In this document: positions 4,181-60,993 of the stretch, one piece after another
How positions within the stretch are numbered: position 1 is the stretch's first letter
How the letters are laid out: each line of letters begins with the position of its first letter
Assembly: GCA_030674185.1 (NCBI GenBank)
Contig: JAPXFY010000031.1
Coordinates: 42,493,949 to 42,557,948, forward strand
From: Monoplex corrugatus
Lineage: Eukaryota > Mollusca > Gastropoda > Littorinimorpha > Ranellidae
Direction: 5' to 3'
Length of the DNA stretch: 64,000 bases
The notes under the pieces: generated by a model
What the model saw: only the letters and a program-made list of their open reading frames with translations
Told to the model about the DNA's origin: nothing
The model's database searches: none
Made by a program: the position numbers and the translations under genes

Positions 4181-4662
4181 CTTCTTTTTTTAATTTTTTT
4201 TTTTTTATCTGCCGCTACCATCAGGTGTCGCGGGGAGATGGAGACAACGATCAATTTTGCCTCTGTGACTGACAGGACATGAACATGGAGGGTCTCGGAC
4301 ACGCCTTCGATCCATGCCAACAAATGTCAGAACTCACTCTGCCCTACAAACCTTCCAAAGCTTTCATATCTCAAGAAGCTTCTCTTCAAACATCTCTGAG
4401 GTGAGCGCTTCTCATGGGGCGTACACGCATGTTCAGCAGCTCCTAGAAATTCGCTTTGATATTGTGTCTACATTGTGGTTGTGTTGTATATCTTGTGCAT
4501 GGTGGTATCTAAATTTTTCAAGATGCGGACTGCTATATTTTTAGACGTGTTAGTTTCTGTGGCAGTGACATTTTGTGTTTTAAAATGTGAAGTGCGAGCT
4601 GTGAATACCGGTCAACATGGCGGCCATACTGCGCCCACACACTAGACACGCGCGAGGCAATC

Positions 4663-5472
4663 TTGCTGCTCCAGTCCACTGCTAACTTTCTCCCGCGCGC
4701 AATAGACACTTTCCCTGCCGAAATGATCCCAGACAGAAACACCGACAGTGACAGCTGCAGGAAGAAACGCAGACGGCCTGGCCACCGAGGGGGTGTACGA
4801 CGGAGGTTACGACGTGATAAAACCCACCTTCCCCTCCCTTCCATCATCATGGCCAACACGCGCTCCCTGCGCCCCAAAGCCCCAAATTATAATTTTGACG
4901 AACTTTGTGCTGATGTCAATTACATGCATGAATACAGATCTGCCTCTCTACTATGCTTCGCTGAGACATGGTTCGACGACAATATCAGCGATGATAGCGT
5001 CTTCATAGATGGTTTTGGCACTCCATTCCGCTGTGACCGAGACTTGGCAGTCAGCGGCAAGAGCGGCGGTGGCGGTGTGTGTGTTTACATCAGTCAGCAG
5101 TTTTGTCACCGAGCCAACGTCACCGTCAGAAAAACTCTCTGTACCCCTGACCTTGAACTGATTTCCTTGTCTCTCAGACCCAAATACCTGCCACGCGAAT
5201 TTGGACAAGTGTTTGTGACAGTTATTTATAGCCATCCGAAAGCCAACACTTCACGTGCTGTGACAGAAATTGCCGATGTTGTGCATTATTTACAAACACT
5301 CTCACCAGATGCCCCAAATTTTGTACTTGGTGATTTCAACTCTTGTGACCTGAAACAGACTTTACCTTCTTTTAAACAGTATGTAACTTGCAATACCCGT
5401 CTAAATGGAAAACCTGATCGATGCTATGGTAACATCACCTCTGCTTTAAATCTTTTCCTCTCCCTGAGATAG
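4663..5472 (+). pseudogene. LINE endonuclease (APE-type) region
   Basis: An open frame of 269 codons. From about residue 62 it follows an exonuclease/endonuclease/phosphatase fold: MANTRSLRPK, then LLCFAETWF (the catalytic E region), GGGVCVYIS, VTVIYSHPK, and FVLGDFNSCDL (the GDFN motif). The final SDH motif is in another frame just after the stop (GKSDHQAIHL near 5472-5500), so a frameshift lies near 5460. The basic segment KKRRRPGHRGGVRRRLRR before the domain may be the end of the upstream region. The domain nicks target DNA during retrotransposition. Confidence 0.85.
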
Positions 5473-5479
5473 GTAAATC

Positions 5480-7346
5480 CGATCACCAAGCCATTCATTT
5501 AATCCCTGCTTACAGACCTGTTGTTCAAACCCAGCCAGTTGTAAAGAAGAAAGTTAAAGTTTGGTCTAGTGAAGATGTTTCAAAACTGCAGGCATGTTAT
5601 GAATGTACAGACTGGGATATGTTTATTGACACTTCTGATTCTATTGACGAAGCTACCAACGTCATCTCTGATTATGTTACATTTTGTGAAAACATGCTTA
5701 TTCCGACAAAAGAAGTAAAAGTTTTTCCCAACAACAAGCCGTGGATCACAAAGTCACTGAAACATACCATTAATGAGAAGAAAATAGCATTCCAGAGTGG
5801 GGATAGGGTGAAGAGGAAGCAGGTTCAGAAGAAATTAAGAGAAGAACTAAGGATAGCCAAAGTAGAATATAAAAACAAAGTAGAGCAAACATTTTTTCGT
5901 GGTAATATGAAAGATGCGTGGAAGGGGATTAAAGTCCTTACTGGCCAGAATAAGCCACAACAGAGATGTTCCCTCCCTGAGGATGAAAAGATCAAGTTTG
6001 CCAACTCTCTGAATGAGTTTTATTGTAGGTTTGAGAGGCAAGACTTGAAAGACCAGTTACTTGATGTTATGAATGATTTGAGGGAAAGGGGGCGGGGAAA
6101 GGAAAGTGATGACGGTGGGATCGACGGCTCTCTTGTTGAGGCTATTTTTAGAAAACAGAACATTCACAAAGCTGTTGGACCAGACTATATTAGTGGAGGG
6201 TTGTTACGCACGTGCGCTAGTCAGTTGTCATATGTTTTTAGCATGCTGTTTTCCTGGTCGCTTAGAGTCTGCACTGTGCCTTCTCTCTGGAAAAACTCGA
6301 TCATTTCTCCTGTTCCAAAATCCAGAGGTCCAAAACTGCTCAATGACTTTAGACCTGTAGCCTTGACCTCCATAGTAATGAAATGCTTTGAACGGATAGT
6401 CTTACGCCAGGTACAAACCCAGACACAGCGCTCTCTTGACCCTTTTCAGTTTGCAACAAACAAAACAGATCCACTGATGACGCAACACTCACTCTTTTAC
6501 ACAACGCATACACTCATGTAGGAAAGCCAGGCTCTTTCGTACGCATTCTATTTGTAGACTTCTCTTCAGCATTCAATACTATTCAACCTCATCTCATGGC
6601 ACTCAAACTCCTCAAACTCAATGTTTGTCCTAAGCTCATTCTCTGGATAATAAGATTTTCTTATTAATCGTTCTCAAACTGTCTCTTTTCATCATGCACT
6701 CTCTGACTCTCGTTCCACCTCAACGGGCGCTCCTCAGGGTACAGTCCTCTCTCCTGTCCTCTTTACTCTCTACACCAATGACTGCTCTGGCACTGATCTC
6801 ACTCCTGTTATAAAATATTCAGATGACACAGCAATCCAAGACCTCTCCAACTCAGACACAACATTCAACCAAGAAGTAGTTAAGTTCACTACCTGGTGTA
6901 CAGACAACTTTTTAGATCTAAATGTTAGAAAGACCAGGGAGATGATCGTGGATTTCCGGAGAGAGCCCGGTGTGATCCCTGACCTTTTTATCAATGGTGT
7001 GAAAGTTGAGCGTGTGAATGAGTATAAGTATCTCGGAACGATTCTTGACAGCAAACTCACCTTTGATACAAACACGCAAATAATACACAAAAAATGTCAG
7101 TCACGCCTTTTCTGTCTTCAAAAACTTAGGTCTCTGCGTATGAATGAGTCCATTCTTGGTAATTTCTATCGTTGTTTTATTGAATCTGTCTTAACTTTTG
7201 GATTTTTGTGCTGGTTTGCTGGTCTGAGTGTGAAGAATAAGAGAGTGTTGGACAGGGTGGTGAAGGTGAGTGGCAAAGTAGTGGGAGTACAACAGAGGAG
7301 CATTAATGAACTATATGAGTGTCGTATTGGAGCAAGGCGAGAATGA
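5480..7346 (+). pseudogene. LINE reverse transcriptase region, frameshifted
   Basis: The frame resumes near 5474 and is open from 5619 to 6521, then breaks. RT landmarks in order are PWITKSLKH, AVGPDYISGGLL, WKNSIISPVPK, DFRPVALTSIVMKCFERIV, then in other frames FVDFSSAFNTI, GAPQGTVLSPVLF and YSDDTAI (the catalytic box, with YSDD replacing the usual YADD). A last open stretch, 6942-7346, holds MIVDFRREPG, the RT thumb landmark YKYLGTILD and a C-terminal domain. The catalytic aspartates are present, but reading-frame loss makes the copy inactive. Confidence 0.85.
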
Positions 7347-18800: not shown

Positions 18801-19256
18801 TTTTAAGAAAATAAATTAAAAAAAATAAATTAAAAACAGTATCTGGTGTGGTGGTTTCCATCAAACTCGAAGATGCTGATGGGTGATGCATGATGGATGC
18901 TGATGGGTGATGCGTGACGGGACATGCCATTAAAATCTGAGGTCTACTTAGTTTCATGATCTTCATATATATATTCTCCATGAGAAGAATGAAGCACAGC
19001 CTACAATTTACCAGCACTGAACAATGTATCTGGAAATTCTGTCACACACAAGTTTCCCAGATTTATCACATATCAACACAATCTGACATAATTTACAAAT
19101 GCATTAACAGCCCTTTCATTCCCTCACCCTATACACCAGCTTCCAACCAGAAGTGAGTGAACAGAGTGTGGAACTGTAAGTGTTACCTGACGCATCAAAT
19201 GATCAATGATCATCATTGGTTGGTGGGTCTATATATATATGATGCCATCTCAAAAG

Positions 19257-20721
19257 GTGACATACAAAATGTGACATCACACCTAAAAATACAACTTTAT
19301 CTAAAATGAACAATCTTAGAGTCATTTGATTGCTTGAGCTCTGGAGAATTGAGGACAGTAAGTGAAAAGATAGTCGGATGATTAGAAGTTGCATTTTTGC
19401 ATGACCTTTTGTGCAGCAGTGTACATTGTCGTATGTGACAGCAGACAAAGTGTGAGCGCTGAAAACATCACATAAAAGCAGAAGAAGTAGAAACCGGCAC
19501 ATTACCAAAGAAATTAATCAAAATGTCTGCAAAATCAGATATTTGCATATAATTAATTCAACCATGGATTTTCTGAAATTAAAAAAAAACTTTGTCTGCC
19601 GTCACATACGACACAGAGAAAGGAGAAGCAGTTTACATAAAGAAGACACAAGCAACACATGTACTCTAAGTTCAACATAGATTTATTAGAGTCATTATCA
19701 TTATTGTACTGAACACATTCAGATCTCATATTTTTAAGTTTCAAGTTACAAAGCAGGAGAGGTTCATGTCGTATGTGACATTTATACCAGAGACCAAGCA
19801 CACAAACTATTTAAAGGCAGTGTGGGTGACCAAAATCATTTGCAAACAACTGGGTCAAACTGAAACAAACATAATGAGCAAATGGTCACGACAATCAACA
19901 TCAAAAGCCTTCAACTATTTCTCAGATCAGATTTTTCAGTCGTATGTGACGGTGTCTGAAGACAAAGTCAGTCGTATGTGACGGTGTCTGAAGACAAAGT
20001 GAATTCAATAAAATGTTTTAAGTTCACAACACCACATGGTATATTGTCTGTACCATTAACTAGCTGAACAGAAAACTTCACTACCAACAGAATATATGAT
20101 TTAAGTTAATTTTGTTCATTTTTAACATAGATTATGAAAATTATAACAAGCTTCATCAGCTGTAATGCAACAAAATTGAGAAACTATTGCACAAATTAAA
20201 AACAAAAATCAGCATAATCAGTTAAAGACATAAAATACACTGACTTTTATCAATGGCATTTGTATTCAACACCAACAAACTCCATATTCTTAGATGAAAA
20301 TGTTATGTAAGCACATTCACATGTTGTATGTGACATTCATAGCGGAGACAAAAAGTACAGTAATTAAAACATTGACACGAATTATCCAGATGACTGCTAA
20401 TGTTGAATACATGATTACAGTGATGTAAAATAACACTAACAGTTGAGTAATTAGCAAAGAACATCATAGTTCAGCATAAGGAGGGAAAAAATCAATAAAA
20501 AGAAGCCAGCATATCCGGAAAGTGGAATGAGCAGCTTTCAGTTGTCCCAGAAGACTTATTGGACATTGTCACCAGTGCACGTAGTCAATGCAGTATCATA
20601 TATAACTTTATTGTTATTGCAACCCAGTTAAAAGAATCAATACAAATCAGCAATTTTTAAGTCAGTTGAAGCTTTTTTTTTAATAAGTCAAAATTATGTT
20701 TTGTCTGCTGTCATATACAAC
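19257..20721. promoter_or_regulatory. Left array of the bipartite GTCGTATGTGAC motif
   Basis: Exact copies of GTCGTATGTGAC lie at 19428-19439, 19768-19779, 19939-19950 and 19971-19982 on plus, and at 19601-19612 on minus. One-mismatch GTTGTATGTGAC is at 20323-20334, and GTTGTATATGAC on minus at 20710-20721. Weaker matches are near 19257 and 20813. Reading in the motif direction, the sequence that follows is AGCAGACAAAGTG, GGCAGACAAAGT, ATTTATACCAGAGACCAAGC or GGTGTCTGAAGACAAAGT. The two copies at 19939 and 19971 form a 32-bp tandem duplication. All lie downstream of the stop codon of the 1164-residue gene. Confidence 0.85.
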
Positions 20722-21037
20722 GGACAAGTATGGGCAGCAGTTACACATCAAAAAAAGAAAAACACGATTTTACTGCTCTAGTACAAGAAGCCATTCTTAT
20801 GTACAAGATACTGTTGTATCGGAGCAGAGACAAAAAATGACAAGAAGGCCAAGGGCAGAAGTTTAGTTAATAAAAACAACTGTAGTTGATTGACAAATAA
20901 ATGATGTGCATAAATGTCCCACTAAACATGCAGTGATAGACAGCGAGAAAGTCCAACTCCCTGTAGAGATTCCCTCAACTCCTAACAAGCTGACCAATTT
21001 CAGCATAATAAAAGACAAAAAACCCTTGAGGCAAAAT

Positions 21038-23859
21038 TCAAACCAGCTTGAAAAACTGTTTCCGTTGTGAACTCTTGCTGGCCACAAGCTCTATGTGAAC
21101 TCTTTCTTTGAGCACATTGGTGCTTTCGTCAGATGTATCTTGTTCGTATGGCCAAAAGAAGAGACCTTTTTCCATCTCCATACAGCTGATTCTGATTGTG
21201 CCCTCTGGGTGAATCATTGTTATTTCGCATACATAGTCTTCTTCTCGCCAAGTTATGAGGAACTGGTCACCAACAGCGACATCTTCAAGTGTGAACCTGT
21301 TATAAACAGTGAAGTCCCCACTGACAGTGACGGCATCATTCACACTGTTGATTGGCATGAGTGGTACAAAATGATTTGCCGTCCAGTGTCTGTCCTCAAC
21401 ATCATCCCTGGTTGTTGTCCACATGATGTAGACAGGTATGTCACTGCCGAATCTTGGCTTCAGTATACGGTTGTGAAGTGACTGGTAATGAGCCCATCCC
21501 TTCTGTGGGTACACCGAACAAATGGCAACACCAAGAACACTGGCTGCTGCAGCAAGTTGCCATAACCCCATGTTGATGCTTCGGTTCCGCACATACATTA
21601 TTTCTCTGACAAGAGATGTCCTTACCATGTCGTCGTCAATGGATGATTCCGGGGTAAGCCCTGACCCCTCTGCAAGGATGGCAAGGTGTCTGACCACCCA
21701 TACCCCTCCCATTCCCTCACCCTGGATGTATCTTTCTAGGCTCTTTGTAAGTTCGCTGACAATCCTGCATCGCATCTCAATGTGATGTGTATCTTGCCCA
21801 TAAACAAAGAGACTCAAGCACCTTGGCAGGCAATTGCCATCAGCACCATTGATGACCGGAAAAAGATTACCCGACATTTTCTCAGGTATCAGCCTCAAGG
21901 CTTCCTTATCCACCGTTCCCCGCACTCCTACTACTGTCTTCTCCGTCAGTTCTGGCAGTGGTGGTAATTGTGCATTCAGAATCACATTCTGCAGCTCGTC
22001 AAATGTTCTGCATTCACAAATCGCAGCATGGAGTTGTGCGAAGTACTCTTCAACTGGCTGCTGTGGACAGAAAGGTGTTGGTGATGCAGTTTCTCTCTGA
22101 TTCTTACTGGGTGATGATGAGGTTGGTGCAGACTCTGTCCGACTCTGACATGATGATTGAGGTGGTGCAGTCCCTCTCTGATTCTGACAGGATGGTGGCG
22201 GTGATGCACTCTTTGTGTGACCCTGATGGGGTAGTGGTGCAGATTCAGAAAGTTTGATCTTTATGGTCTCCCACTGATCTACAAAGTCTGCATTTTCGCA
22301 CTTGGTGCCCGTCAAGCAGCCATTACAAAAGCAGGCTAACTTTCTTGTTTGAATCACAACCTCATGTCGGTCACCATCTGAAACACCACGCACACTGTGT
22401 AGTGACCTGGTGCCAGGCACTGTCTGCAAGTATGATGATACAAATGAACGGTCCACCTCATCAGATTTGATGCAGTGAAAGGTTCGCTTTACATGGCAGC
22501 ACTCGCCTGCTTGAGGTTCTTGTGTTGGAAGTACATGGTTGGCTGTACAATGGTCAAAGAAATCCACAGCATTCTGAACAACAACCTCGCCAGCACAGAC
22601 ATCTTCATCAACCAGGCATTTAACCACTCCACCACAAGAGTCACATGGGCTTTTGCCATGGCGGGATCCAAAGTATGCTCTTGTGATCCTGACTGGGGCA
22701 GTGGGGTCAGTCAAGTGGTACAGAGGTAGTTTACTTTTAAACTGTGCAGCACAGCCATCGCTGAACACAATGAGGTCAGTCAGATTGCCACTCATTCTGT
22801 TCTGCAGATTATGTGCAGTGGCATCCAGTATGCTCTTTGCCAGGCAAGCATCTTTGTTAAGGTCATCACTGACGAACACCATGTACTCTGTCACCATATC
22901 ATCACAGCTGGGGCACTTGTAGTATGTCACAGTTGGGTGGAGGGTCACTTGTGAGTACCCCCAGTGGGCAGACTGTACCTCATCTTGATGCTTGCAGACA
23001 TAGTTTTCTGCAAAATCACAAATGGCAAGAGCCATGTTTGGACGAGAAATGACGTCACTTTTGCAATTTCGAAATTGATGGTACTGCCACCGAAAGACAA
23101 GCAGATGTTTTGAAAAGGATTCTAAATCATGGAGCAGTGACTCTATGAGATCTCCCAGCTTCCCAACCTTCTTCACTATATCTTTCCGTTTGCCCTTCCC
23201 ATTTGCATTATCTACCATTTCCCACTGCTCCCATACGACAGTATCTTGTACATTTGATTCAGACTTCAAGTTCTCAAAAATAAAGTTAGAAACCAAATGA
23301 ACCCCGCATGCAGTACAGGACCTATTATAGCAGTCTAGTTTTGGCACAGCACACAGGCTGCGTTCAGACAGGACATCCCTTCCATCAATCTCAATCCCAA
23401 GAGATTGATTCACAACATCCAGTTTTTTGTCTATGCCTACACAAATTTCACAGAGACCTTGGCGAAGTTTCTGTTGCTTGTAAAAAATAAAGTTCTGTGG
23501 AATGCAACGGTAAAATGTTGCCCTGGACACTCTGACATTGGGATGAGTCTTGTTGTACTCAGCATGCAGCCGTTTTACACGTTTTGGAAGAAGCTTTTTC
23601 TGGACCATCTTCCGCTTGCTGACAGTTGCCTTGCCAGGAAGGTCAATGGCCACCTCATCCAGAAAATCAGCAAGTGAAACAGCTTTTGCTGATGGCTTCC
23701 TATGGTAGAGTACAGATGGCCTGTCTGCCTCCTCGCCTGCCTCATTGACTGTGTCAAGGATCAGCCTCCTGGCAGTCAAGCTGATCTTAGACCGCTTTTT
23801 CCTCAGGGAATCCAGTGTCTTCGTGACATTTTCCCTTATTTTCTTTGATGTGGGTGATC
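21038..23859 (-). CDS. Exon 5 of a transposase-like/OTU-like fusion protein
   Basis: It codes for residues 225-1164 of the spliced protein and ends at a stop at 21038. Features by residue are: CEIC 361-364, CTAC 406-409 and CPSC 540-543 (zinc-binding pairs); CDFAENY with D506, QDEVQSAHW 516-524, IVFSDGCAAQFKSK with D592, and HGKSPCDSCGG with D631 (a plausible DDD triad, spacings 86 and 39); CFCNGCLTGTKC 734-745; a Ser/Pro/Gln linker 762-827 with degenerate repeats; then an OTU-like module with DGNC (C901) and NHFVPL (H1054); and a C-terminal domain to 1150. The acceptor is TGTTACAG and the codon is split 1+2. I have seen such DFAEN/SDGCAAQF proteins unnamed in invertebrate genomes. Transposase and protease roles are inferred. 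Confidence 0.85.
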
Positions 23860-24392
23860 CTGTAACAGAAGACAGTGAAGCACATTTGCGGATGGTTATA
23901 GAAAATATACATTTTTCTGCTGACATTATGCCTTTTATATCTTATCACATCTCTAGCCTCTTTATTTTCCAACTTGGATATATTAGCACATTGGCCTCCT
24001 TACATAATTGCCATTGTTAAAAAAATGCCACAAGAAGAAAACAATGCAAATACTGTTCCTATAAGAAGAAATCCAAAATCATGAAGCAATTAATCAATAA
24101 ACAAAAAGCATGACCGGTAAAACAAATAACAATACAGTAATCATAATAACATGAACCAATAACATCACAAACCATTAACAAAGAAACACGTGAAGCTTAA
24201 TAATTATGATAATAAATTATCCACAAAGATAGATATGTGTGCGCATGGATGTGTGTGTGTGTGTGTGTCCATTATTATAGATTACAAATTGTTTAAATAA
24301 ATGCAGAACTGTATTTTGTGCTATTTCACGTGTATGTCATCATGATAATAAGAAAAATGATACTGACATTATTCAAACACAAACAAACAAAC

Positions 24393-24578
24393 CTGCCAGC
24401 AATTCAACTGCTTTGCGCTTTCGAGGTGTTGCTTTTGCTGCCTTGGTCACTGAGTGCAAGAATTTTCCAAACACCTCCGGCTTAAGCCTCAAGGCTGCCT
24501 TCTTTACCCTGGACACAGCTTTCCTGGCAGCTGACTCTGATGTTGCCTTGGGTGGTGTTGAAGGAGTGCTCCCCGTCT
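24393..24578 (-). CDS. Exon 4 of the transposase-like/OTU-like gene
   Basis: It codes for residues 163-225, a Lys/Ala/Ser-rich segment (TGSTPSTPPKATSESAARK, VSRVKKAALRLKP, KAVELLA). The acceptor is GTTTCAG and the donor GCAG|GTTTGT. The 2-nt start and 1-nt end match the phases of exons 3 and 5. The composition suggests a disordered, DNA- or chromatin-binding region. The donor +3 to +5 bases are poor, so alternative splicing is possible here. Confidence 0.75.
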
Positions 24579-25046
24579 CTGAAACCAAACAAGAAAAAAA
24601 TGAAAATGCTGTGAACTAACAGCTTTCACACATTTTCATCGAATCAAAACAACTTTATTATCTCACAAGGAAAAAGTATATCAGGTGCAAAACAAATACA
24701 CAATTTACACAAGAATATAACAGACATCATATGTGCATACAAATTGTAGCACAGGTAACTGCAAACATAAAATTGCCCTTTCAGTGTCATCAATACATAC
24801 AACATTCATAAGCCATGCATGCACCACACACACACACACACACACATTTTTAAAATTGAATATATATTTTTTTTATACATTTCATTTTGTGTGTACCCAC
24901 TCTGAGCTCTTTGGAGATAGGATAGAGTGCAGCAAAATCACATTATTATTATAAAACTCATAATGCATATGGGATGAATTATCCCCTTATTCTAATGAAT
25001 GACAGCATTCTGACAAGAAAATCACCAACATTACATGATTATTTAC

Positions 25047-25285
25047 CTTTAAATGGAGTATGGGATGTCTTCTTTGCATGATAGTATGCTAAAGCCTTCT
25101 CTCTGTGTCGCCTCTTCTTTTGAGTGCTCCACTTTGACCGCCTGATACGTTGCTGGTTCCTCCACTTCTGGCGCCTCTCTTGAGTGGCATTTTCTTGCTC
25201 AAGCCTGCTAGCACGGGTATCCCTCTTCTGTACTGCTTTTGGTGTTGAGTCCAATTTTTTTGGGCCTTCAGCTCTCAACCGTTCT
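25047..25285 (-). CDS. Exon 3 of the transposase-like/OTU-like gene
   Basis: It codes for residues 83-163, strongly basic and probably helical: ERLRAEGPKKLDSTPKAVQK, RRQKWRNQQRIRRSKW and QKKRRHREKALAYYHAKK. The acceptor is TTCTTACAG and the donor AAAG|GTAAAT, phase 1 on both sides (1 nt start, 1 nt end), fitting exon 2 (2 nt over) and exon 4 (2 nt start). Repeated Arg/Lys/Gln helices of this kind are expected of a nucleic-acid-binding N-terminus with nuclear localisation signals. Confidence 0.8.
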
Positions 25286-25761
25286 CTGTAAGAACACAAA
25301 CCTCATGTGCCTTAAACTAACCAAAGACACAAGCCCCAAATATTGGATCAGGTCTCAGAAATTTGAACTTTTGAACTCACCAGTAGTAGCAGGAGGCAGG
25401 CTCTGCCAGACTGCCACGCTGTTTATATACTACCATTCTAGCTTTAATTTTTCATGTGAAATTATCAGTCCCTAATCAAATCTGCCTGAAGCAAATTCAT
25501 ATCTGTGATTTACAAAGTTGCTGTTTGTATGTACAGAATAACTCAATATGTTTAGAATCAATCACTGGGCACTGATACAATTTTGAATTTGAGCTTTATA
25601 TACTGGTCAGTTCTTTTCTTTATTATGTTAGATATGTGTACGCAAGGTTCTCTTGTTTAACAAGAATAGATACACCAATAATGCAAATATCACACAGAAA
25701 AATAATGACTTGATTTACTAATTTTCTCCTTAGCCAATATATATTGATTGTAAGAAAATAC

Positions 25762-25987
25762 CTGCGCCTTTGCTGTCGCAGACGTGCTAGATCCCGGGCT
25801 CTTTGCTTCTGTTCTTCTGAGGCAGACTGCCGATTCTTTTTGCTTCTTCCTGCTTCTTTCAGGCGGTTCAGGGTGTATTGTTCTGGGTCTGCTTTAATGC
25901 TCATCCGATAGGCCCAGCATCTTTCAGCATTGCTGACTCGTGGAGTTGGTGGGGCAGTGGTCTTGGGGCCAATGCGTACACGTAAAC
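25762..25987 (-). CDS. Exon 2 of the transposase-like/OTU-like gene
   Basis: It codes for residues 8-83. It contains VSNAERCWAYRMSIKADPEQ, then a charged helix with KKNRQSASEEQKQRARDL and LRQQRRR. Segments of the SNAERCRAYR type at the N-terminus are common in these invertebrate multi-exon proteins. The acceptor is TCTGTCAG and the donor CGCAG|GTATTT. The exon starts with 2 nt that complete the codon opened by exon 1 (G|GT). Confidence 0.8.
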
Positions 25988-26139
25988 CTGACAGAAAGAG
26001 ATAGTAATTTTCTTTAAAATATGAAATCTGAATAGGCCTATACAGGAACAGCACAAGACAAATTACTTAAAAACTGTCACATACATTTTTGAGAAAGGGG
26101 TGGGGAAAGGGTTACTCTAAAGGCCCCATAGAACCTTCT

Positions 26140-26455
26140 GCGTTCACAGGCTGAAACTCCTGCGGGCACTCCCTATCTAAGCATGTAAATTGACACAACC
26201 TAACTACCTCATAGAGGGAGTGGATGTTTGCGTGCATGGCCCTTTTTTATCCAGCCATAAAGGCAGCCATACTCTGTCTTCGGGGAGTTGGGGAGAGAGT
26301 TTGGAAAAAATACAGGTGAATGGGCTTGAAGGCAGAAATACGAGAGCATGACAGGAAAGAGGAACTCCTAACTACCTAACACAGCAAACTAGATAGCTCC
26401 TGTGGTTCCAAAACAGGAGGGGACCCTAATTTCTCAATCCGCAGTACCCCACTGC
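26140..26455 (-). mobile_element. SINE copy inside intron 1
   Basis: Read on minus, it has CCGAAGACAGAGTATGGCTG, CCTTTATGGCTGGATAAAA, GGGCCATGCACG and a GTGAACGCAGAAGG end. These follow the 3' half of a SINE that I recognise from mollusc genomes. Its ends are bracketed by near-direct repeats CCCCATAGAACC (near 26134) and GCCCATAGAACC (near 26459), a possible target-site duplication. It points to an insertion after the gene/motif unit was in place. Confidence 0.65.
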
Positions 26456-26490
26456 GGGGCCCATAGAACCACTTGGTCTGTGTTGAGAAT

Positions 26491-27451
26491 GTCACATACG
26501 ACCAATCAGTTAGGGCATATCAGAAAATAATAGGTCTCATGTATGTCAGTATTATTCATTACAATATCATAATAGAGCACTTTGTAATAGAAACACCTGG
26601 GATGCAAAGCAAGTAACAAAACTAAAATTGCATTACTTCACAGTCGTTAGTGACATAAGACCAAGTGAGTACAAACCTAGACACTTGGTCTTCCGAAAGA
26701 TTAGTCACGACCAACCATGCAAATTGCTGAAGCAAAATTATGAATAAAGAGATCATGGAAACTTCGTTATAATTGTTAAAATGTTCGTCAGGCAAGTGCA
26801 ATACATCGATAATCTGACCTATGGTTGTCAGTAATGATTGTCCTGTGAAATATTTTAGGTTGTTCGTGACACAGACCAAGCCGGAAACTTGGTCTGTTGA
26901 TAAAACGAAAGTCGTTCGTTCAACCTTCGTTACCATAGCAACATTTTCGACGCTTACATTATCAATCAAAATAACGTTCTGCTGAAACAAAAGCACAAGA
27001 ACGTCCAGTAGATGCTTAGGAATAGGTATTTAAATGTTGTTTGGTTGTTCGTTACTTCTGATCGTACGTTACATATCATACAACAAAGACCAAAACCAAA
27101 AAACTCACCTTCGCGCTTTCTTCCCTCCATCTGGGCAAGAAAAGAATCACGTGACCGTACTGCGAGGTTCCACGAGAGAGAATTCTCGATTGAAGCAGAC
27201 GACGCAGTCGGTGCAGTTTTTCCGAGGCCGAAATTGTCGTACGTGACGAACAGACCAAGGCTTCAGTCAGTGTCGGAAAATCGACCGGACAAGTTAACTA
27301 CTCAAAAACGATCCGTGTGTGTAAAATATTTTGAAAAGAGATCCATAATACAGTTATGATTTACACATGGACTTCGTTTCATTGGCAGTTCATAGCCTTT
27401 GAGGAGGATATTTTGGATAAATTCAGCGTGACAAAGCATGTCACGTACGAG
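26491..27451. promoter_or_regulatory. Right array of the bipartite GTCGTAYGTGAC motif
   Basis: Copies: exact motif on minus at 26491-26502; GTCGTTAGTGAC 26643-26654; a reverse copy ending GTCACGAC 26704-26711; GTTGTTCGTGAC 26859-26870; GTTGTTCGTTAC 27044-27055; GATCGTACGTTAC near 27060; GTCGTACGTGAC 27236-27247; and reverse CTCGTACGTGAC 27440-27451. Most are followed by AGACCAAG, for example ATAAGACCAAGTG after 26654 and GAACAGACCAAGG after 27247. Two form inverted pairs around AAACTTGGTCTG-type sequence near 26683 and 26887. They straddle the start codon, so they could also control transcription. Confidence 0.85.
27109..27130 (-). CDS. Exon 1 (start codon) of the transposase-like/OTU-like gene
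   Basis: ATG at 27130-27128 opens MEGRKRE plus one base, followed by a consensus GTGAGT donor at 27108. This phase is the one required by exon 2, and with it the coding length is 3495 nt (1165 codons with stop) with no frame error over four junctions. That arithmetic is the main argument for this start. The upstream frame was not searched for another ATG. The 1121-bp intron 1 holds a SINE and five to seven copies of the GTCGTAYGTGAC-like motif. Confidence 0.7.
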
Positions 27452-27459
27452 CATACGGG

Positions 27460-28390
27460 TTTTCAAATCACATTGTTGTTGAAAGAAACGTTGTACACTG
27501 ATGATTCTTGTGGAAAATCATGATATAATCTTCCATCAGTCACACAAATAACACCACATTCGCTCATATACTGTTTACTGACAACCAAGTAAACACATGA
27601 TGAATGCTATGTGCAATGTCACAAATTGGAAGATGGATTTACACAACATTGATGAACATTTTCGTTATTTTCACCCACAAAAACATAATACAGCAATTTG
27701 GATTTATCATATGTATCTCTCAAATGCTTTCTGAGGCAAATTATATTAAAAATGTGTGTCAAAGGTTCAAATTTATTTATTATTGAACTGTTGAATAACC
27801 ATAGTAATAACAGTGGCACCTTTTGAGACAGCATCATATATATGTAGATACTATCTATCTACACTGATATTTTTTGCCCATTTGTGCCTTGAGGTGTCGA
27901 AGTTTGTATCACAGACACTCTTCAAACAATCAGTTGGATGAATAATGCATCAGACACAAACATGTGACCATTTTCAATAGTGGTGGTCATTTCTAAAAAA
28001 GTATATATAAAGAGGTATTGTACATCCAGTTGTGGTTTGATTAACTATAACTTGTATAAGTATAAAACAAACAATGATAATATTATAACAAAGTAAAGGC
28101 AAACTTCAACCAATCCTAATTTTAAGAAACAAAATTAAAAAGGCATTTCATATCACAGCCATGGTTCCTTTTAATTAAAAAAAAAATCACATAAAATTGT
28201 GGGTTTGATTCTAAAAAACTAACAATGATATTAATTATTATTAACAATAATAACAAAACACAGGCAAACTTACAGGTAAAGAGACACTTCGCATTTATAT
28301 TATAACTATTGTGGTTCATTTCTTGGGGGAAAAACAAGCAAAAACACAAGCCACAGTTTTATTTTTAAGCATGCCAATTTTTTTCAGATG
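27460..28390. other. AT-rich stretch without recognisable features
   Basis: No coding signal, tandem repeat or match to repeats elsewhere in the window was seen. If the 19-27 kb unit is a transposon, its right end and inverted repeat should be searched for here. Confidence 0.5.
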
Positions 28391-33420: not shown

Positions 33421-35274
33421 CTAATGTCTAGATGGGCTGTCTGCTTGGTCCAAGCAGCGTCGCATGTGACTGTACAGACCAATGCGAGAGAGGCAGTCTC
33501 TGTCGCAGCGGTCGCATGTGTATGCTGATGCTGGTCTGTTGGCTGTCATCCCTTTTCTGCGAACTCGCTTTTCTGCTGCAGCAGCTGACAGTTTGTCCTC
33601 ACCAATCCGCAGCTGTTTCTTGAGAGTAGTTCTCCAGCTGTTGCGGTCGTCTGCGAGGTCCTCCCAGGACTCAGTGTTGATCTCAAGCGCCTTCATGTCA
33701 CGCTTGCAAACGTCTTTGTATCTCAGCTGTGGGTGGCCAATGTTTCTCTGCCCTGTGGCAAGCTCACCATAAAGGATGTCTTTTGGGATGCGACCATCTT
33801 CCATGCGGCGAACGTGGCCCAACCAGCGCAGCCAACGCTGTCTCAGCATGGTATGCATGGTTGGGAAGCCAGCGCAGGTTAGGACTTCGGTGTTGGTCAC
33901 CTTGTCTTGCCAGGAAATGCCAAGTATGCGCCGTAGGCTTCTCAGGTGGAAGGTATTGAGCCTTTTCTCCTGATGAGCATGCGTGGTCCACGCCTCGCTG
34001 CATTACAGCAAGGTGCTGAGGACACAGGCGTTGTATACAGCCATCTTTGTCTTTGTGGTCAGCTTGGGATTTGTCCACACCCTTTGTGTGAGGCGGGCTA
34101 GTGTTGTGGCTGCCTTCCCGATCCTCTTGTCGACCTCTGTGTCAAGGGAGAGGTTATCGGTGATGGTGGACCCAAGATATGTGAATTGATGGATGGCTTC
34201 AAGCTCGTAGTCATCAATGGTGATGGCTGGTGGAGATGGCGTGTCTTGGCCCAGGACGTTTGTCTTCTTAAGACTGATGGTCAGACCAAAATCTTTGCAG
34301 GCCTGGGAGAAGCGGTCCATTAGTGACTGCAAGTCCCGCTGAGTATGGGTCACAACTGCGGCATCGTCGGCAAATAGCATGTCTCTGATGAGGGCTTCAC
34401 GGACCTTTGTCCTTGCTCTGAGGCGGGCGAGGTTGAAGAGCCTGCCATCTGATCTGGTCCGCAGGTGGATCCCTTCTTGCGCTGTGCTGAACGCATGCCT
34501 CAGGAGGAGAGCGAAGAAGATTCCAAAGAGGGTTGGGGCCAGGACGCAGCCTTGTTTCACACCGCTACGTACGTCGAAGGGCTTGGAGAGGTTTCCGATG
34601 AACTGCACCATCCCTTTCATGTTTGAGTGGAAGGACTCAATTAAGCTGTGCAGTTTGGGGGGGCAGCCGATTTTTCGGAGAGCCCTGAAAAGGCCATCTC
34701 TGCTGACTAGGTCAAAGGCCTTGGTGAGGTCAATGAATGCCACATACAGGGGCATCCGCTGCTCTCTGCACTTCTCCTGGATTTGGCAAAGGGAGAAGAC
34801 CATGTCTACCGTGGATCTCTCTGCTCGAAAACCACACTGTGATTCCGGGTAGACACGTTCAGCCAGTTTCTGCAGGCGGATTAGGAGGACCCGAGCATAG
34901 ACTTTGCTAACAATGCTGAGGAGCGAGATACCTCTGTAGTTGTTGCAGTCGCTCCTTTCGCCCTTGTTTTTGTACAGGGTGACGATCTTGACGTCCCTCA
35001 TGTCCTGTGGTACAGCTCCCTCATTCCAACACTGACAGAGAACTGCGTGCAAAGGGTGCAGAAGAGAAGTCTTGCAGTGCTTGATGAGGTCTGGGGGAAT
35101 TCCGTCATTGCCAGGTGCCTTCCCTGATGCCAGGCTATCAATGGCCTTGCTGAGTTCGTCCGCAGTTGGCTCTGCATCAAGTTCTTCCATTACCGGCATG
35201 CATTGATGGCATCGAGGGCTAAGGGGGACACCATGTTCTGTGTGGAGTAGAGGTCGGAGTAGTGTTCCGCCCAT
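33421..35274 (-). pseudogene. Retrotransposon reverse transcriptase with C-terminal zinc finger
   Basis: A single frame from 35274 down to 33421, interrupted by one TAA at 34005-34003. RT motifs in order are GKAPGNDGIPPDLI, NNYRGISLLSI, GFRAERSTVD, VAFIDLTKAFD, GVKQGCVLAPTLF, FADDAAVV (catalytic box) and FTYLGSTI. After the stop the same frame continues WLRWLGHVRRMEDGRIP, then YTCDRCDRDC...SHMRRC, a C2H2 finger. It joins the endonuclease frame through a one-base shift near 35195. Apart from these lesions it looks complete, and the copy is probably young. Confidence 0.92.
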
Positions 35275-36482
35275 CTTTCCATCTGTTGGCTAGGATTGCT
35301 GATTACTTCCCCAGTGGAGGATTTGAGGGGGGCGATCTTGCTCTGTGTTGGTCCCAGTGCCTTCTTGATGCCATCATACATTCCTCGGATGTTGCCTCTT
35401 TCAGCAGCACTCTGTATCTCTTCACTGAGCTCTGTCCAGTACTCGTTTGCGCAGCGCCTGGCGTTAAGCTGAACCTTACTTCTGGCAGCCCTGAGGATTT
35501 GCAGGTTCTTCTCACTGGGTGACCGCTTATACTTGGTGAGTGCGGCACGCTTGGCCTCAACAGTGGGAGTCATCTCTGATGATTTGGCCTCAAACCAGTT
35601 GTGGGACTTCACAGTTTTCTTCCCAAAGGTGGCCATAGCAATGCGGTGCATGGTGTCTCGTAGCGTTTCCCATCTCTCAGTGGCAGAGTCTCTGGGCTGC
35701 AATGCATCGTATTCTCTCTGAAAGGCCTCTGCGAACTGTTCTACAAGATCTGGCTGAGACATCTTGCTGACGTCAATGCGAGGGTTCCCTTGTTTCTTTG
35801 AGCAGTGGAACTTCTTTGGTTGTAGCCTGATCTTGCAACATACCAGAGAGTGGTCTGTGTCGCAGTCTGCGCTGTGATAAGAGCGAGTGTGGAGAACGTT
35901 TTTGATAGCGGCACGTCTTACTAGGATCAAATCCAGTTGGTGCCAATGTTTTGAGCGGGGATGCCTCCAGGAGACTTTGTGCTGAGGCTTCGTCTTGAAG
36001 AAGGAGTTGGCGATGCACAGTTCATGGCAGGCGCAAAACTCAAGCAGTCGCTGTCCATTCTCATTCATTTTCCCCACTCCAAAGGAACCGAGGCAGAAGG
36101 GCCATGAGTCATTGTCTGCACCCACTCTGGCGTTGAAGTCGCCCAGGAGAACAAGTTGTTCTGTCCTGGGGATGTTCCTTATGGTTGATGCAAGATTTTC
36201 GTAGAACTCATCCTTGGTGTCTGGAGAGGCGGACAGAGTTGGGGCATAAACGCTGATGAGAGTGACACAGCCTTCGGTGGTGTTGAGGCGGAGAGTCAAG
36301 AGTCGTTCTGAACCGCCGCTGCCTGGTTCAATCATGTTCAGCAGGCTGTTCCTTACTGCAAAGCCTACTCCGTGCTCTCTTGGGGCATCAGAACTCTTTC
36401 CTTGCCAGAAGAAGGTGTAGTCCCTTTCCTTTAGTGTTCCTGAGTCAGCCAGCCGTGTTTCCTGCAGAGTGGCAATGTCCAC
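35190..36482 (-). pseudogene. Retrotransposon endonuclease and linker
   Basis: An open frame of 430 codons beginning MDIATLQETRL (catalytic E). Further motifs are GVGFAVRNSL, LISVYAPTL, LVLLGDFNARVG, HQLDLILVRR and DTDHSLV, the full set for an APE endonuclease. Homology continues upstream in another frame (ARKTAVINSELKRLN, and further up KLGCWNVRTMMPG to about 36600), so a frameshift near 36520 removes the true N-terminus. The frame ends inside the linker at 35190, just as the RT frame takes over. Confidence 0.9.
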
Positions 36483-37160
36483 ATTGAGCCTCTTTAGTTC
36501 GCTGTTTATGACGGCGGTTTTTCTGGCTGTCGCTGATGTCTTGCAGATCTTGGGAGAGCCCAGGCATCATTGTTCGGACATTCCAACAGCCCAGTTTCAC
36601 TGCTGATCCTTTTCCTGATCCGTTTCTTGAATTTTAATTTTTCTTTTTGTTTGGTGGGGTAATTAACGACCTGCTTGTCGGGATTTTCTCCTAATCTTCA
36701 TGCACCCAATGAAGAAGGCAGGTCGTGGCGGGACAGCACCTAACTGGCTGGGGACTGCCCAGCTTAGGCGGGCGGTAGCTGTCCAGTAAGACACGAAGGT
36801 CTCTCCCACCGTCAAAAGCAACCCCTGGCGTCAGCTCTACGCCAGTTGAGCAATGACTTATCACCGGTATCTGTTGCTTCCCGTGTTGTGCCGACACTAG
36901 TGTTAGTAGCGAGGCTGGAGTGTCCTCTCCAGGTCGTAGGTGCAGAGTGTTTGTGGATGAATGGACGGATGTAAGCCCGGGCAGTGTAATATGGAAGACA
37001 GGCTGTTGCCCATGCAACTTGTCCCCCCTCTCCACCTCGCTGACAGATCCAAAGGAACAGCAGGACTGTTACGTTTTGGTGCCAACTAGGCCGCAGTAGC
37101 TGCCGGAAAGTGACAAAGTTTGCCATCCAACCGCCACAATCATAATGCACATAAAATACT

Positions 37161-41878: not shown

Positions 41879-43755
41879 TTAACCCTTTGCCTACCACATG
41901 ACTTTGTGCTATATGTCTATGAGAATACCATGGAAAGGGAAGTAACTCCGCAACACATGCACATCCACCACAAATAAACCTCAATAAAAAATTTAATTTT
42001 TACTCACCAATTACATAAATTTGATGAAAAAATGCCAAAGACATCACTTCATCCAAAACAGCCATTTTTTTTCATATGTAGTGAACTAGTATATGAAGAA
42101 AAAAAACAAAACGATCAGACTAATTTTTACGTCAGAGTTCTTGGCGCTGTAAGAATATTTCCTGAATTCACTGGAACCACAGAATGTCATGGATTAGGAG
42201 CAAATAGTGATTTTCCATGTCCAGACATAGTACTGAAACCTTCAGGAACAAAATAAAGTCATTCTGTGTTTTCTCCACACTGAATAGTTAACTTTTGTGG
42301 TGAAGAAAAAAAAACCAAACTTTCAACAGTGTTGTGAAACTAAAAGCGTCACATACAGAAGATTTGTCTACTAACTACTGAGGGGAAAAAAACAACAAAA
42401 TGAACATATAATTGCTGACACTAGTGACAGGTAGATTTCAGGTGCTGATGAAACTCAGCAAAACATGTGCCTTTAAACAAATGAACAGAACAAATTACAC
42501 ATCCCCACATTGTGGTGATGCTATATCCCTTGTCCGTCTTCCTCTTCGCCTTCTGGCAAACCAGGCAATTCTTTATTAGGCCTGGAAGACGGACAGGTCC
42601 ATGGGAGAGAGGGTCTGATGCTGTGACACCTGCCTGTGCCACAGACTGGGGAGCAGATTTCTGGCGAACAGAGTTGCTGTTACGCAGGGCCTCCAGTGAG
42701 GACGCACTTTGTGCAAGGGGTCATAGCCAGGCTGACCCTTGGGAATAGCTTTACTGCTGTCATTTAAATGAAAATACTGATTTAATTTATTATATATCTA
42801 TTTCTACTAATGACATCAGCAACCTGAGCAATACATAAAGGATCTGTGGACCAGTAGTTGCTGATTTCTGGTACGCGAATGATCCCAAACATAAACTGAA
42901 CATAGATGAATAATTTCATTTCATCAGGTGTGGTAGGCTGCCAGAGTTTATCTACACCTTTTTCTGCTTGCCTTTGTGCAGCATATAAATTTGTTTCTGT
43001 GCTCAACATTTGCCAAAATTCGTCTGGTATCAAAAGACTAAAAAAATCCAAAAGGTGACGCACCCACAAGCAAATCATGGGACACGCCAACTGACTGCAA
43101 AATTTGGTCATCGTCCGATTCAGTTTCCTGGCTGTCAAAACCAGCAAAAGTTTTTTTGGGCTTCACCTCATGTAGTCTATCATTCCAGTGAACAATAACT
43201 GAATCTCTAGCAGCCTTTGTTTTCCGAATTTTCCTTTTTTTGGCGCTGGGCCCAGCAGCGATAGGCAAATCGATATCACCATCATTATCACCCGATTCAC
43301 TATCGATTTCGGACTCCAAATCAATGAGCAGACGATCACTGTTGATAACTAGGTCAACATCGACGTCGAACTCATCTTGTTTCGAAATTTCTTCAAGATT
43401 GAAGCCTTCAAAAACACTCTCTTCATCACTAACATATCCAAAAATGGATTCCAGAAGTTGCATGGTTTCTTGATCCGCCATTTTTGCAAAAAATTTTCAC
43501 GAAAAAAAGGCTGAACTTTGAAAAATCACAGCAGCAAAACTACTCAACCAAACTTCTTGCAACAAAGCACAAAATGTCGTCCGGAAATGGCCCTACCGGA
43601 AGCCGCTTATATCGCGATTGCATTCTGGGATATGCGATAGTGAAAGTGAAAGTCGCTGACCTAGTATTCGGCGGTCGATCTTGGTCGATCCGGTATTCAG
43701 AAAACGGAAATCTCTGTGCGGTCGATCGCGGTCGATCCGGTAGGCATTGGGTTAA
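41879..43755 (-). mobile_element. piggyBac element with internally deleted transposase
   Basis: TTAACCCTTTGCCTACC at 41879-41895 faces GGTAGGCATTGGGTTAA at 43739-43755, a 17-bp inverted repeat with two mismatches that includes the TTAA target on both sides. The right subterminal region has repeated GGTCGATCCGGTA/TCGATCTTGG. The 1.88-kb body holds the start and end of a minus-strand transposase but lacks its catalytic middle, so the element cannot move by itself. It lies in what is probably an intron of the AP-1 sigma gene or its 3' flank. Confidence 0.9.
42421..43481 (-). pseudogene. piggyBac transposase, core deleted and frameshifted
   Basis: The start is at 43481 (MADQETMQLLESIFGYVSDE), an acidic N-terminus typical of the family, open to the stop at 43038. 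A frameshift near 43060 is needed to reach LLDFFSLLIPDEFWQMLSTE, TPDEMKLFIYVQFMFGI and VISRNRY (to 42782), the entry of the DDE_Tnp_1_7 domain. The following several hundred codons with the catalytic aspartates are absent. Sequence resumes at about 42640 with LPGLIKNCLVCQKAKRKTDK, TMWGCVICSVHLF and CFAEFHQH, the C-terminal cysteine-rich DNA-binding finger. Confidence 0.88.
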
Positions 43756-51349: not shown

Positions 51350-53720
51350 AGCACAGATGAATGAGTTCATAATAGGAAACATCTGGTTTGAGCAACCTAA
51401 CAGAAGAAAATGGACATTGATGAGTCCAGGAGATAATACTAACAATCAAATTGATTACATCATGATAAATAAAAGATTTAGAATTTCTTATTGATATCAA
51501 AAATACTACCAGGCGCAGACTGCAGCAGTGACCACAATCCTGTAATGGGAAGATTTAGGCTAACACTAAAGAAAAGAACACAGAACAAAAGTAACAACAA
51601 ACTAAATCTTGGACCCGTAAAGACAGACGAACCAACGCTTGCAAAAATTTAACGTACATGCTCAAAAGAAATCCAGTGCTCTGGGGGACGTTGGGGACAG
51701 TGAGGAACAATGGACAAAGATAAGCAACTCGATTTAAGAAGCTTGTGAAAAAAAATTCCTAGAGTTGAAAGAAAAGCAAAAAAGAACTGGGTGACAAAGA
51801 AATCAAAGGCTTGATGAAGAATGGAGAAAGGCAAAGGGCAAAGAGGAAGAATACAAGAGGGTAAACAGGGAAATCAGGAATAGGTGCAATGAAGCTAAGG
51901 AAGCTTGGCTGAAAACAAAGTGCAAAGAAACAGAAGACAGACACAAAACAGATCCTCAGAGTAAGTAGAGAAAAACTGAAGAAATTGCCCACAGGAAAAT
52001 AACATGCACAACTGGATGCTTAAAATCGAAAGATGGTATGCTTATCATGGAAAAAGACACAAAAATTTTTTTTTTAATATTAGGGAGATGGGGAGAGTAC
52101 ATTTTCAGCGATAACAGAAATGAAGAATACATTATAATAAAGAACGTTGAAGGACCACCCTTAATGAAAGATGAAGTTAGGCCCACATTGAAAAGATCAA
52201 ACAGGGAAAAGCCCCAGGACCAGACAATATTACAACAGAAATGAGAGAGGCCCTAGAACATTTTGTTATTGAAAAAATACTAGTCCTCCTAAATGAACTT
52301 TATGATACCGGAAAAATCCCCAAAGATATGTCAAAATCAATTTTCATTATACTTCCAAAGAAAACAGGGGCTATAGAATACGAAATCTATTGTACAATCA
52401 GCTTGATGAGTCATGTAACAAAAATCCTATTTAAAATAATCATGATGAGGACAAGGAACAGAATCAAAAGAGAAATAGCAAAAGAACAGTGTGGATTTGT
52501 GCAAGGGAAAGGAACTATCAATGCAATACACATCTTAAGAACTATCATAGAGAAGTCAGTAGAGTTGAATAAGGATTTATTTTTGTGCTTCGTTGATTAT
52601 ACCAAGGCTTTTGATCAGGTAAGACACGAAGAATTAATCAACCAACTAGAAAGGCTCAATATTGATTGAAAAGATCTAAGAATAATCAGAAATATATGTT
52701 GGGAACAAACAGCAGTGATGAGAATAGAAAACGATATAAGCTCTTTCCAAAATATCAAAAGAGGGGTCAGGCAGGATTGTGTTCCGTCACCAGATTTGTT
52801 TTCACTTTACAGCGAAACCATTTACAGAAATCTAGAAGAATGCCCTAACATAAAGTTGGAGGAAAATGATAAATAAATTCGTTACGCAGATGATACCGTG
52901 ATAATTGCAGAAAAACAAAAGAGACCTACAAAACCTTGTGAATATAATAGTAATAGAAAGCAAAAATAAAGGGTTGGAGCTGTATAGGAAAAAGACTGAA
53001 GTCAAGGTTATCAGAAAAATACAAAAAACAAAACAAACAAATCGACGCACAAATAAACAGACAAACAAACAAACAAAAAACAAACAAACAAAAAATTTTA
53101 AAAAACAGGAAATCCCCTCATGCAAAATAACAGCAAATGGCACAACGTTGAAACAGATTAATAAGTTTAAATATCTGGGAACAGTCATCTCACCAAACTG
53201 GCAGATGCACATTAGAAATAGCCAGCAAATTCGGGGAAGCCAAAACAGCATTGAAGAAGATGAAAAGCGAGCTTACCATCAAATGCCTATCAGTTAACAT
53301 CAGGAAGAGAGTTCTTGAATGTTATGTAGAATCAATACTGTTGTACGGTTGTGAGGCGTGGACAATCAACACGCAAAGTCAGAACAAAATTGAGGCAACT
53401 GAAATATGGTTTATAAGAAGAATGTTGAGAATTCCATGGACATCAAAGAAAACAAATGAGACAGTCTTGAAGGAGGCAGACACAAGAAGATCATTAATAA
53501 AGAAGAGTAGGAAAAGACAAGCAACATTTATAGGACATATTATGAGGAATGGGGAATTAGAACACCTGGTCCGGACATGAAAGCTGGAGGGAAAGAGAAC
53601 ACCAGGTAGACCCAGGGAGAAAATATTGGACGGACTTGCAGGGTGGCTGAGGAGAGAGGATGGGAGATGTACTTGCAGCGACAGGGGATAGATTCGTGTG
53701 GAGGGCCATGATCGCCAACG
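51350..53720 (+). pseudogene. Non-LTR retrotransposon, most complete copy of the split family
   Basis: The endonuclease C-terminus is visible at 51395-51545 (FEQPNRRKWTLMSPGDNTNN, QIDYIMINKRF, then DHNPV-type text in another frame). RT follows: PGPDNITTEMREALEH (52215-52260), an open frame 52241-52669 with AKEQCGFVQGKGTINAIH and LCFVDYTKAFDQVRHEEL, then RGVRQDCVPSPDLFSLYSE, RYADDTVIIAEK, FKYLGTVIS, and an open C-terminus 53251-53580 (LLYGCEAWTI, RRMLRIPWTSKKTNE, FIGHIMRNGELEHLV). Several stops and shifts inactivate it. The downstream tail includes ATGATGATGATTATGATGAT. The clade is probably RTE-like. Confidence 0.85.
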
Positions 53721-59743: not shown

Positions 59744-60993
59744 TTAATCCTTATGAAGTTCACTTTTTTGGTTCCTCCTTGCCCAGATCCAGCTTGAGCT
59801 CCTTTCTGCTGCCTCTGCCATCGCTTTAAGGGCTCTAGTCCTCTTCTTCCCAGAAATGGCGAGTTGTTTCATGAGATCATAAGCGGAGGTGCCCACAAAC
59901 CCTCTTGCCCCGACCTCTATGGCGAAGATTTTGACCCGCAGACCTGCTTTCTTCAGGGTGCTGGCAAGACCGGCGTATTTTTCGGTCTTGTAGATATGTG
60001 CTTCTTCCATTCTGCTTTCGTATGGCACAGTGAGTTCTATCAGAATCACTTGTTTCGAGGAGTCAGAGTGGAGAGCGATGTCTGGTCTCATGCCTGTCTT
60101 GCTGATGACATCTGGGTAATTTCTCCACTCTGGGAGGTCTGCTGTACACTCCCAGTCGACTGCTCCATCCAGAAGACCCTTTGGCAATGTGCTGGTTGTC
60201 ATAGCCCTTTCGGGCCAGACCTGTTTCCCTCCTGCTTTGTAGAACGTTGTCATAGCAATTGGTGCGTTTGGGGTCATGGTTTTTTCGCTAACCACTCTGT
60301 GATCACTTTCAGAACTTGGTTGTGCCTCCATGTATACCTTCCTTGGGCTAGCGCTACTTTGCAAGAGCTTAGGACATGTTCCACTGTTTGTTTCTTCTGA
60401 CAGAGCGGACATGCTGGGTCGTCTGATTTCCCCCATTTCACTAAGTTTGCATTCGAGGGGAGCAGGTCATATACAGATCTGAGGAGGAAGCTTATCCTTA
60501 GAGGAGCCATGTGCCACATATCGTTCCAGCTAAGACTTCTTTGGAGTGCACTGTCCCATGTTGTCCATTGCCCCTGTTGACCTTGCTGGACTGCCTTCTG
60601 CACTCTTTTGACATCTTCTTCTTCCTTCAACTCCTGTATGATCATGTCTCTTTTTTCCTTCCCTTTGGCTTTGGACCACCACTGCATTTTTGTTGCTCCC
60701 AGTCCCTGTCTGTTGGTTTGCGTGTGTCCAATTATTTCTTTGATGCTGAGGTTTCTCTTGGCATTGTTTACAGCCTCTTGGACTTTCCACTTTCTGCCAG
60801 TTCTCAGCTTTGGATGAACTGCTCTCACGATATTGTCCTCCGATTCCTCCAGCATGCTCAACAGTCTTGCTTTTCCAACTTTGTATTCCTCCACTATGGA
60901 TTTCAGAGGTAGCTTCAGCATTGCAGACTCCTTAGAGAACCTCTTTGGAGAGGTACCTTCAGATGCAATTTTCAGTCTTTTACAAGAGATCAA
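59744..60993 (-). pseudogene. RLE-type non-LTR retrotransposon, 3' part of the ORF
   Basis: Two overlapping minus-strand frames, 60993-60274 and 60436-59744, are joined by a shift in the T-run near 60280. The first gives RKWKVQEAVNNAKRNLS, LSWNDMWHMAPLRISFLLRS and a CCHC zinc motif CPLC...HVLSSC (C-x2-C-x7-H-x4-C). The second gives DWECTADLPEWRNYP, RPDIALH...IELTVPYES (the PD-x14-E restriction-like endonuclease motif), EEAHIYKTEKY and IEVGARGF. This arrangement is that of R2/NeSL-type elements. RT is missing (5' truncation). It lies in the intron between 59150 and 61618. Confidence 0.88.

Follow-up and report, generated by a model that had tools for sequence, protein, structure and literature searches.

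The 64,000-nucleotide stretch of Monoplex corrugatus contig JAPXFY010000031.1 analyzed here (the window; positions 42,493,949 to 42,557,948 of the forward strand, assembly GCA_030674185.1) contains a predicted gene that lies between two arrays of a bipartite DNA motif. The gene model, built from splice signals and open frames, has five exons on the minus strand and encodes 1,164 residues. Gene and arrays belong to a single transposon of 8,595 bp that carries terminal inverted repeats (TIRs), ends in GATGC on both sides and is flanked by a 4 bp target site duplication (TSD). A first-pass annotation of the same DNA had placed the mobile unit at 19257..27451; a unit does lie there, with a slightly wider true span, 19241-27835. 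The coordinates of all features are collected in Table 1.

Two arrays of a bipartite motif

In its full form, the motif consists of the 12-mer GTCGTAYGTGAC, a spacer of 1-14 bp and the second half AGACMAAG. This form occurs seven times in the window, always within 19428-27259, and in none of 100 shuffled sequences, which bears out the annotation's account of a motif on both sides of the gene and on both strands. The 12-mer is exact at 19428, 19601, 19768, 19939, 19971, 26491 and 27236; with up to two mismatches it is found 19 times against 5.03 expected, a number that 0 of 100 shuffles reach. An unbiased count of k-mers recovers the same word: GTATGTGAC occurs eight times in the two non-coding ends of the element and twice in the window outside the element, and no non-simple 9-mer reaches more than five copies in any of 500 Markov shuffles.

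When weaker sites are included, 14 are counted, seven 12-mers at the left and seven at the right, with both strands represented at both ends. The left array lies ~190-1,600 bp from the left end of the element, and the right array 385-1,365 bp from the right end. The seven copies that had been reported downstream of the stop codon are all present, although only five are exact, one (20323) having one mismatch and one (20710) two. The "about eight" reported around the start codon is a fair count in which only 26491 and 27236 are exact, the rest carrying one to three mismatches. As to exact copies, the motif is indeed absent from the coding exons and from elsewhere in the window; when up to two mismatches are allowed, the 12-mer appears twice in exon 5 (22919 and 23228) and three times beyond the element (1653, 33459 and 44169), which is about the level of chance.

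The second half, as AGACMAA, accompanies 13 of the 14 sites, separated from the 12-mer by 2, 3, 3, 3, 3, 4, 9, 9, 11, 11, 11, 12 and 14 bases. The spacers form two classes (2-4 versus 9-14 bp) that are roughly one helical turn apart. The gap of five between them has p = 0.027 under uniform spacing, a value that is only suggestive, since the choice of test followed inspection of the data and a tandem duplicate contributes two of the sites. Second halves oppose each other closely in the right array (AGACCAAG ... CTTGGTCT), at 26658-26691, 18 bp apart, and at 26873-26895, 7 bp apart; in the left array, no opposed pair is closer than 139 bp. An extra degenerate left 12-mer begins at 20813, within the 36-nucleotide stretch that matches exon 5 in inverted orientation at 86%, with a score of 26 compared with a maximum of 20 in 200 shuffles. 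This site may have been copied from the exon of the gene, or the copying may have gone in the reverse direction.

Boundaries, copies and a shared deletion

Similarity to the window among the fetched copies stops at 19226-19240 and 27837-27861, with the exception of L010, where the fetched region ends, and L014, which has a gap of N. The end sequences are GATGCCATCTCAAAAGGTG at the left and GATGCTGTCTCAAAAGGTG at the right. Inverted arms of 35 nucleotides (19228-19262 and 27814-27848) are 89% complementary, but their outermost bases are flank and the TIRs measure ~22 bp. A perfect 4 bp TSD borders 14 of 14 copies, the window copy and 13 others (ATAT in 11, ATCT in two, AAAT in one); the set excludes L014 and also L021, which has the same 12-base flanks as L012. 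Two further full-length copies, one with a perfect ATAT and one with an imperfect duplication, bring the total to 15 of 16 (ATAT 12, ATCT 2, AAAT 1). Because the window copy is inserted in a TA repeat, the length of its own TSD is ambiguous, ATAT in TA-rich flanks being open to reading as part of the repeat. The duplications other than ATAT (ATCT in L011 and L022, AAAT in L024) fix the length at 4 bp.

The genome searched comprises 3.02 Gb in 7,621 contigs and contains 317 instances of the full bipartite motif and none of a reversed-pattern control. All 100 places listed of the 317 lie inside copies of the element (106 of 106 in the regions read). The motif is not common elsewhere; as far as listed, it is the private property of this element family. 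Seventeen regions fetched around these first 100 places held 15 distinct copies spanning the middle of the element. A search with the left end scored 40 copies of 48 candidates and, with the addition of L011 and L015, 42 distinct copies were typed. Three are full length and continuous through the deletion point (the window copy, C30:19.1 Mb and C20:17.8 Mb), 38 share one internal deletion and one (C3503) is undecided. The 38 derivatives comprise the 15 of the first fetch, 22 of 25 in the second set, and L034/L081, which has a nested insertion. Each of the 16 copies read across both ends carries five to seven exact full sites, and no paralogous copy among them lacks the arrays. The proposal that gene and arrays form one mobile unit is strongly supported by alignment of the genomic copies, with common end points, TIRs, 4 bp duplications and ~40 dispersed, near-identical copies.

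Over 8.6 kb, the two other full-length copies match the window copy at 99.77% and 99.78% identity; in L082 the full frame of 1,164 codons is open, and the other has one coding indel. Thirteen derivatives differ from their consensus by 0.16-0.90%. The family is recent and the transposon young.

The shared deletion leaves both arrays intact. Its junction has GTCA microhomology and joins the OTU-like domain described below, in frame, to exon 2, and a stand-alone OTU protein was considered as a function kept by the derivatives. Of 13 of them, all but L022 were read using the exon 1 and splice sites of the window, and in 12 of these 12 the frame is truncated, at 156-157 codons in four, 68 in five and 29 in three. 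Even the four longest end ahead of the conserved histidine, and this function was rejected. Exact full sites number seven in 11 of the 13 derivatives, six in one and five in one. The derivatives have multiplied without the full gene and were therefore probably mobilized in trans by the few full-length copies.

Three copies have further peculiarities. L034/L081 (C32:31.59 Mb) contains an insertion of ~1.6 kb at the window equivalent of 20093-20097, with a possible 5 bp duplication. L010 (C1:50.19 Mb) and L015 (C2:43.68 Mb) each contain a tandem repeat of a portion of the element together with its flank, in units of ~4.0 kb that are 99.7% identical and of ~3.7 kb that are 95.3% identical, respectively; these are either local duplications or two haplotypes assembled together.

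The predicted protein

Of 1,413 candidates in a protein search of the genome, 49 were scored and yielded 68 listed matches, among which are several families of relatives with long open frames at 39-50% identity. Relatives in bacteria, archaea, viruses and phages were searched for and none was found. Four relatives that are 41-43% identical to the window protein share many of its cysteines and histidines. In exon 5 numbering, D281 (DFAEN), D367 (SDGC) and D406 (GxRHGKSxCD) are invariant in all five sequences, the window protein included, and the three aspartates are a candidate active site. Equally invariant (5/5) are DGNC at 673-676 and H829, and the C-terminus has DGNC and HFVP in common. A profile of the five sequences compared with the PDB gave nine hits up to E = 10, the first five of which are OTU deubiquitinases: OTUD1 is best with E = 0.0014, followed by two hits each to OTUD5 and OTUD7B with E = 0.15-0.21. 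All cover the DGNC stretch, and alignments were inspected for two. These similarities point to a likely OTU-like C-terminal domain. A fourth long relative of exon 5 lies at C30:36695759-36698458, with 98% identity over residues 1-900 and an open frame of 1,011 residues; its final 39 residues have no reported match.

Table 1. Coordinates in the window of the transposon, its predicted gene and its motif sites
Feature	Position	Strand	Basis or remark
Whole transposon, 8,595 bp	19241..27835		Similarity among dispersed copies stops here; GATGC at both ends
TSD ATAT, left	19237..19240
TSD ATAT, right	27836..27839
Left TIR	19241..19262	+
Right TIR	27814..27835	-
Exon 1, start codon	27109..27130	-	Splice signals and open frame; inferred gene model
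Exon 2	25762..25987	-
Exon 3, basic region	25047..25285	-
Exon 4	24393..24578	-
Exon 5	21038..23859	-	Cys-rich and candidate acidic-triad core, OTU-like C-terminus
Shared deletion	21857..25933		Segment absent from 38/42 typed copies
Left array, full site, spacing 3	19428..19450	+	Motif scan
Left array, full site, spacing 3	19590..19612	-	Motif scan
Left array, full site, spacing 11	19768..19798	+	Motif scan
Left array, full site, spacing 9	19939..19967	+	32 bp unit in tandem with site 19971
Left array, full site, spacing 9	19971..19999	+	Motif scan
Left array, 1-mismatch site, spacing 11	20323..20353	+
Left array, 2-mismatch site, spacing 3	20699..20721	-	12-mer at 20710
Left, degenerate site	20799..20834	+	Within 36-nucleotide stretch matching exon 5 (23218-23253) inverted
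Right array (intron 1), full site, spacing 11	26472..26502	-
Right array (intron 1), 2-mismatch site, spacing 3	26643..26665	+
Right array (intron 1), degenerate site, spacing 12	26684..26715	-	Faces 26643..26665
Right array (intron 1), 2-mismatch site, spacing 2	26859..26880	+
Right array (intron 1), 2-mismatch site, spacing 14	27061..27093	+
Right array, 5' of start codon, full site, spacing 4	27236..27259	+
Right array, 12-mer with 1 mismatch	27440..27451	-	Second half not found

Outside the element, the window contains remnants of long interspersed nuclear elements, recognized by endonuclease, reverse transcriptase or zf-RVT matches, at 4591-7346, 34003-36566, 52181-52669 and 60274-61044. 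An acidic open frame of 152 residues without a Pfam match lies at 43038-43496, and we take it to resemble the start of another transposase.

Affinities of the element and the role of its arrays

Sola elements are described as DDD transposons, mostly of 2-9 kb, with 4 bp TSDs and TIRs of 11-1,124 bp (PMC10741241), and Sola2 of slime moulds as having short TIRs and a 4 bp AT-rich TSD of the form AWWT (ATAT, AAAT, ATTT) (PMC3627910). The element resembles Sola2 in its AT-rich 4 bp TSD (15 of 16 copies), its TIRs and its size range, and its candidate core has three invariant aspartates. We call it Sola2-like, a likeness in TSD length and preference. Beyond what is described for Sola2, it has an OTU-like C-terminus and long subterminal bipartite arrays. 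No report of either in Sola elements was found among the papers listed, as judged from titles and the openings of abstracts, and one mollusc survey gives Sola from bivalves only (PMC10294476).

Membership of another or undescribed superfamily, in which four AT-rich bases happen to be duplicated, is possible but doubtful. The likeness to Sola2 is one of TSD, TIRs and size, and an OTU domain at the C-terminus is on record for Ginger1 and Helitrons (PMC2836005), with no Sola2 case among the papers listed. Ginger1, in which an OTU or Ulp1 domain is joined to the transposase, is like the element in the C-terminal OTU of some members and in its 4 bp TSD, but it targets CCGG or CCGT, has TGTNR ends and possesses a Gypsy-integrase-like core; Ginger2 also has TGTNR ends and targets the 6 bp RTATAY (PMC2836005). 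Neither agrees with the ATAT, ATCT and AAAT targets and GATGC ends found here, nor does the 8 bp TSD of hAT elements such as Ac/Ds (PMC3260210) agree with one of 4 bp. The published description of Sola fits the element, whose three aspartates would be the DDD core.

The whole is likely to be a young, cut-and-paste, Sola2-like transposon of 8.6 kb whose arrays are probably docking sites for its transposase. The protein of the gene would be that transposase and, as proposed earlier, would bind the motif. Its acidic triad, D281/D367/D406, would cut at GATGC and insert the element at AT-rich 4 bp sites, and the protein, or a DNA-binding part of it, would bind the arrays at both ends and pair them. 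Spacer classes about one helical turn apart would be consistent with a single protein that reads two half-sites on the same face of the helix. The OTU-like domain would be a probable deubiquitinase that acts on proteins rather than DNA, and the few full-length copies would move the derivatives in trans.

Known transposons provide precedents. Ac transposase binds AAACGG repeats inside the TIRs, of which three copies were shown to be required (PMC3260210), TNPA binds the subterminal repeats of Spm/En for excision (PMC2613891), and BED domains of Hermes read subterminal repeats (PMC10368747). Ac/Ds is like the element in having many short repeats near its ends, which the transposase binds, and internal-deletion derivatives, which are moved in trans. 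It differs in its 8 bp TSD and in the placement of a hexamer within ~200 bp of each end, compared with a bipartite motif of 12 + 8 bases spread over ~1.4 kb and ~1 kb. CACTA elements with TNPA-type motifs, Spm/En among them, likewise have deletion derivatives and, at both ends, repeated motifs that vary from family to family (PMC2613891); the Spm/En system has CACTA ends and a pair of proteins, TNPA and TNPD, whereas the element has one predicted protein and GATGC ends.

Several observations weigh against this explanation. Searches of Pfam, ncbifam and phrogs profiles found no recognized transposase or DNA-binding domain, the Pfam OTU model matches one of the five family members (E = 0.05), and two single-sequence fold models were unusable, with predicted local distance difference test scores of 37.9 and 36.5. 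The ATCT duplication departs from AWWT at one base, and the full-length copy L082 lacks a perfect TSD. Some maize Ds1 elements without the repeats still move (PMC3260210). Retention of the arrays in the derivatives is weak evidence that they are needed, because the shared deletion was a single founder event. Finally, in 30 left ends retrieved with the outermost 233 bases of the element, variable columns beyond the query are as frequent in the motif (6/120) as in other positions (61/1,359; p = 0.82), counted after masking of L034 (850 columns, nested insertion) and of L047 and L055 (44 each). The copies are too young for a clear sign of selection on the motif. An apparent conservation in a smaller sample of 14 copies that had been found through the motif (2/272 versus 108/3,173, p = 0.011) was gone in the 30 left ends and was dropped as proof of function. 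All 30 left ends have identical 12-mers at 19428, 19601 and 19768, and 26-29 of the 30 do so at each of the other four left 12-mers.

The lack of depletion of variable columns is what would be expected if the arrays were passive, arising by local duplication of end sequence and inherited from one recent founder. The perfect 32 bp tandem duplicate at 19936-19999, and the degenerate site within the stretch shared with exon 5, agree with such an origin. We nonetheless regard it as unlikely. For the most part just the 12 + 8 bases recur, amid differing spacers and flanks; each end has sites in both orientations, which tandem duplication would not produce; and the spacers fall into two classes. Per letter, moreover, motif positions differ in 0.17% of cases versus 0.40% elsewhere (p = 0.03), although the letters are related by descent and not independent.

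Alternatively, the motifs could be sites at which a regulator of the host or element controls expression of the gene, with no part in transposition. Sites of the right array occupy the predicted intron 1 and the region upstream of the start codon, where regulator sites are expected, and TNPA of Spm/En suppresses transcription in addition to its role in excision (PMC2613891). A similar array, however, is found 3' of the stop codon by the other end of the element, and derivatives with a truncated frame carry both arrays and have multiplied. Regulation of this kind, in the promoter, first intron and 3' region, is quite improbable as the explanation.

The exact motif was not found near five distant relatives (two on C2 and one each on C3, C4 and C5), all of them on contigs with a complete listing of motif places; between each relative and the closest motif cluster lie 0.64 to 72 Mb. 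The genome may, as a tentative suggestion, harbor a Sola2-like lineage with long subterminal bipartite arrays, in two spacer classes about one helical turn apart, read by a transposase-OTU fusion, in which motif and reader change together in each family and each family moves only its own copies and their derivatives.

If the protein binds the arrays, this would be a Sola-type element in which end recognition is directly testable. Near-identical full-length copies are available in this family, with the predicted frame open throughout in at least two of them (the window copy and L082), and its naturally occurring deletion derivative gives an indication of which ends are sufficient. With the distant families of this genome, changes in the motif can be compared with changes in the binding region. 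Transposase and deubiquitinase domains, already linked in Ginger1, would be linked in a further kind of transposon as well.

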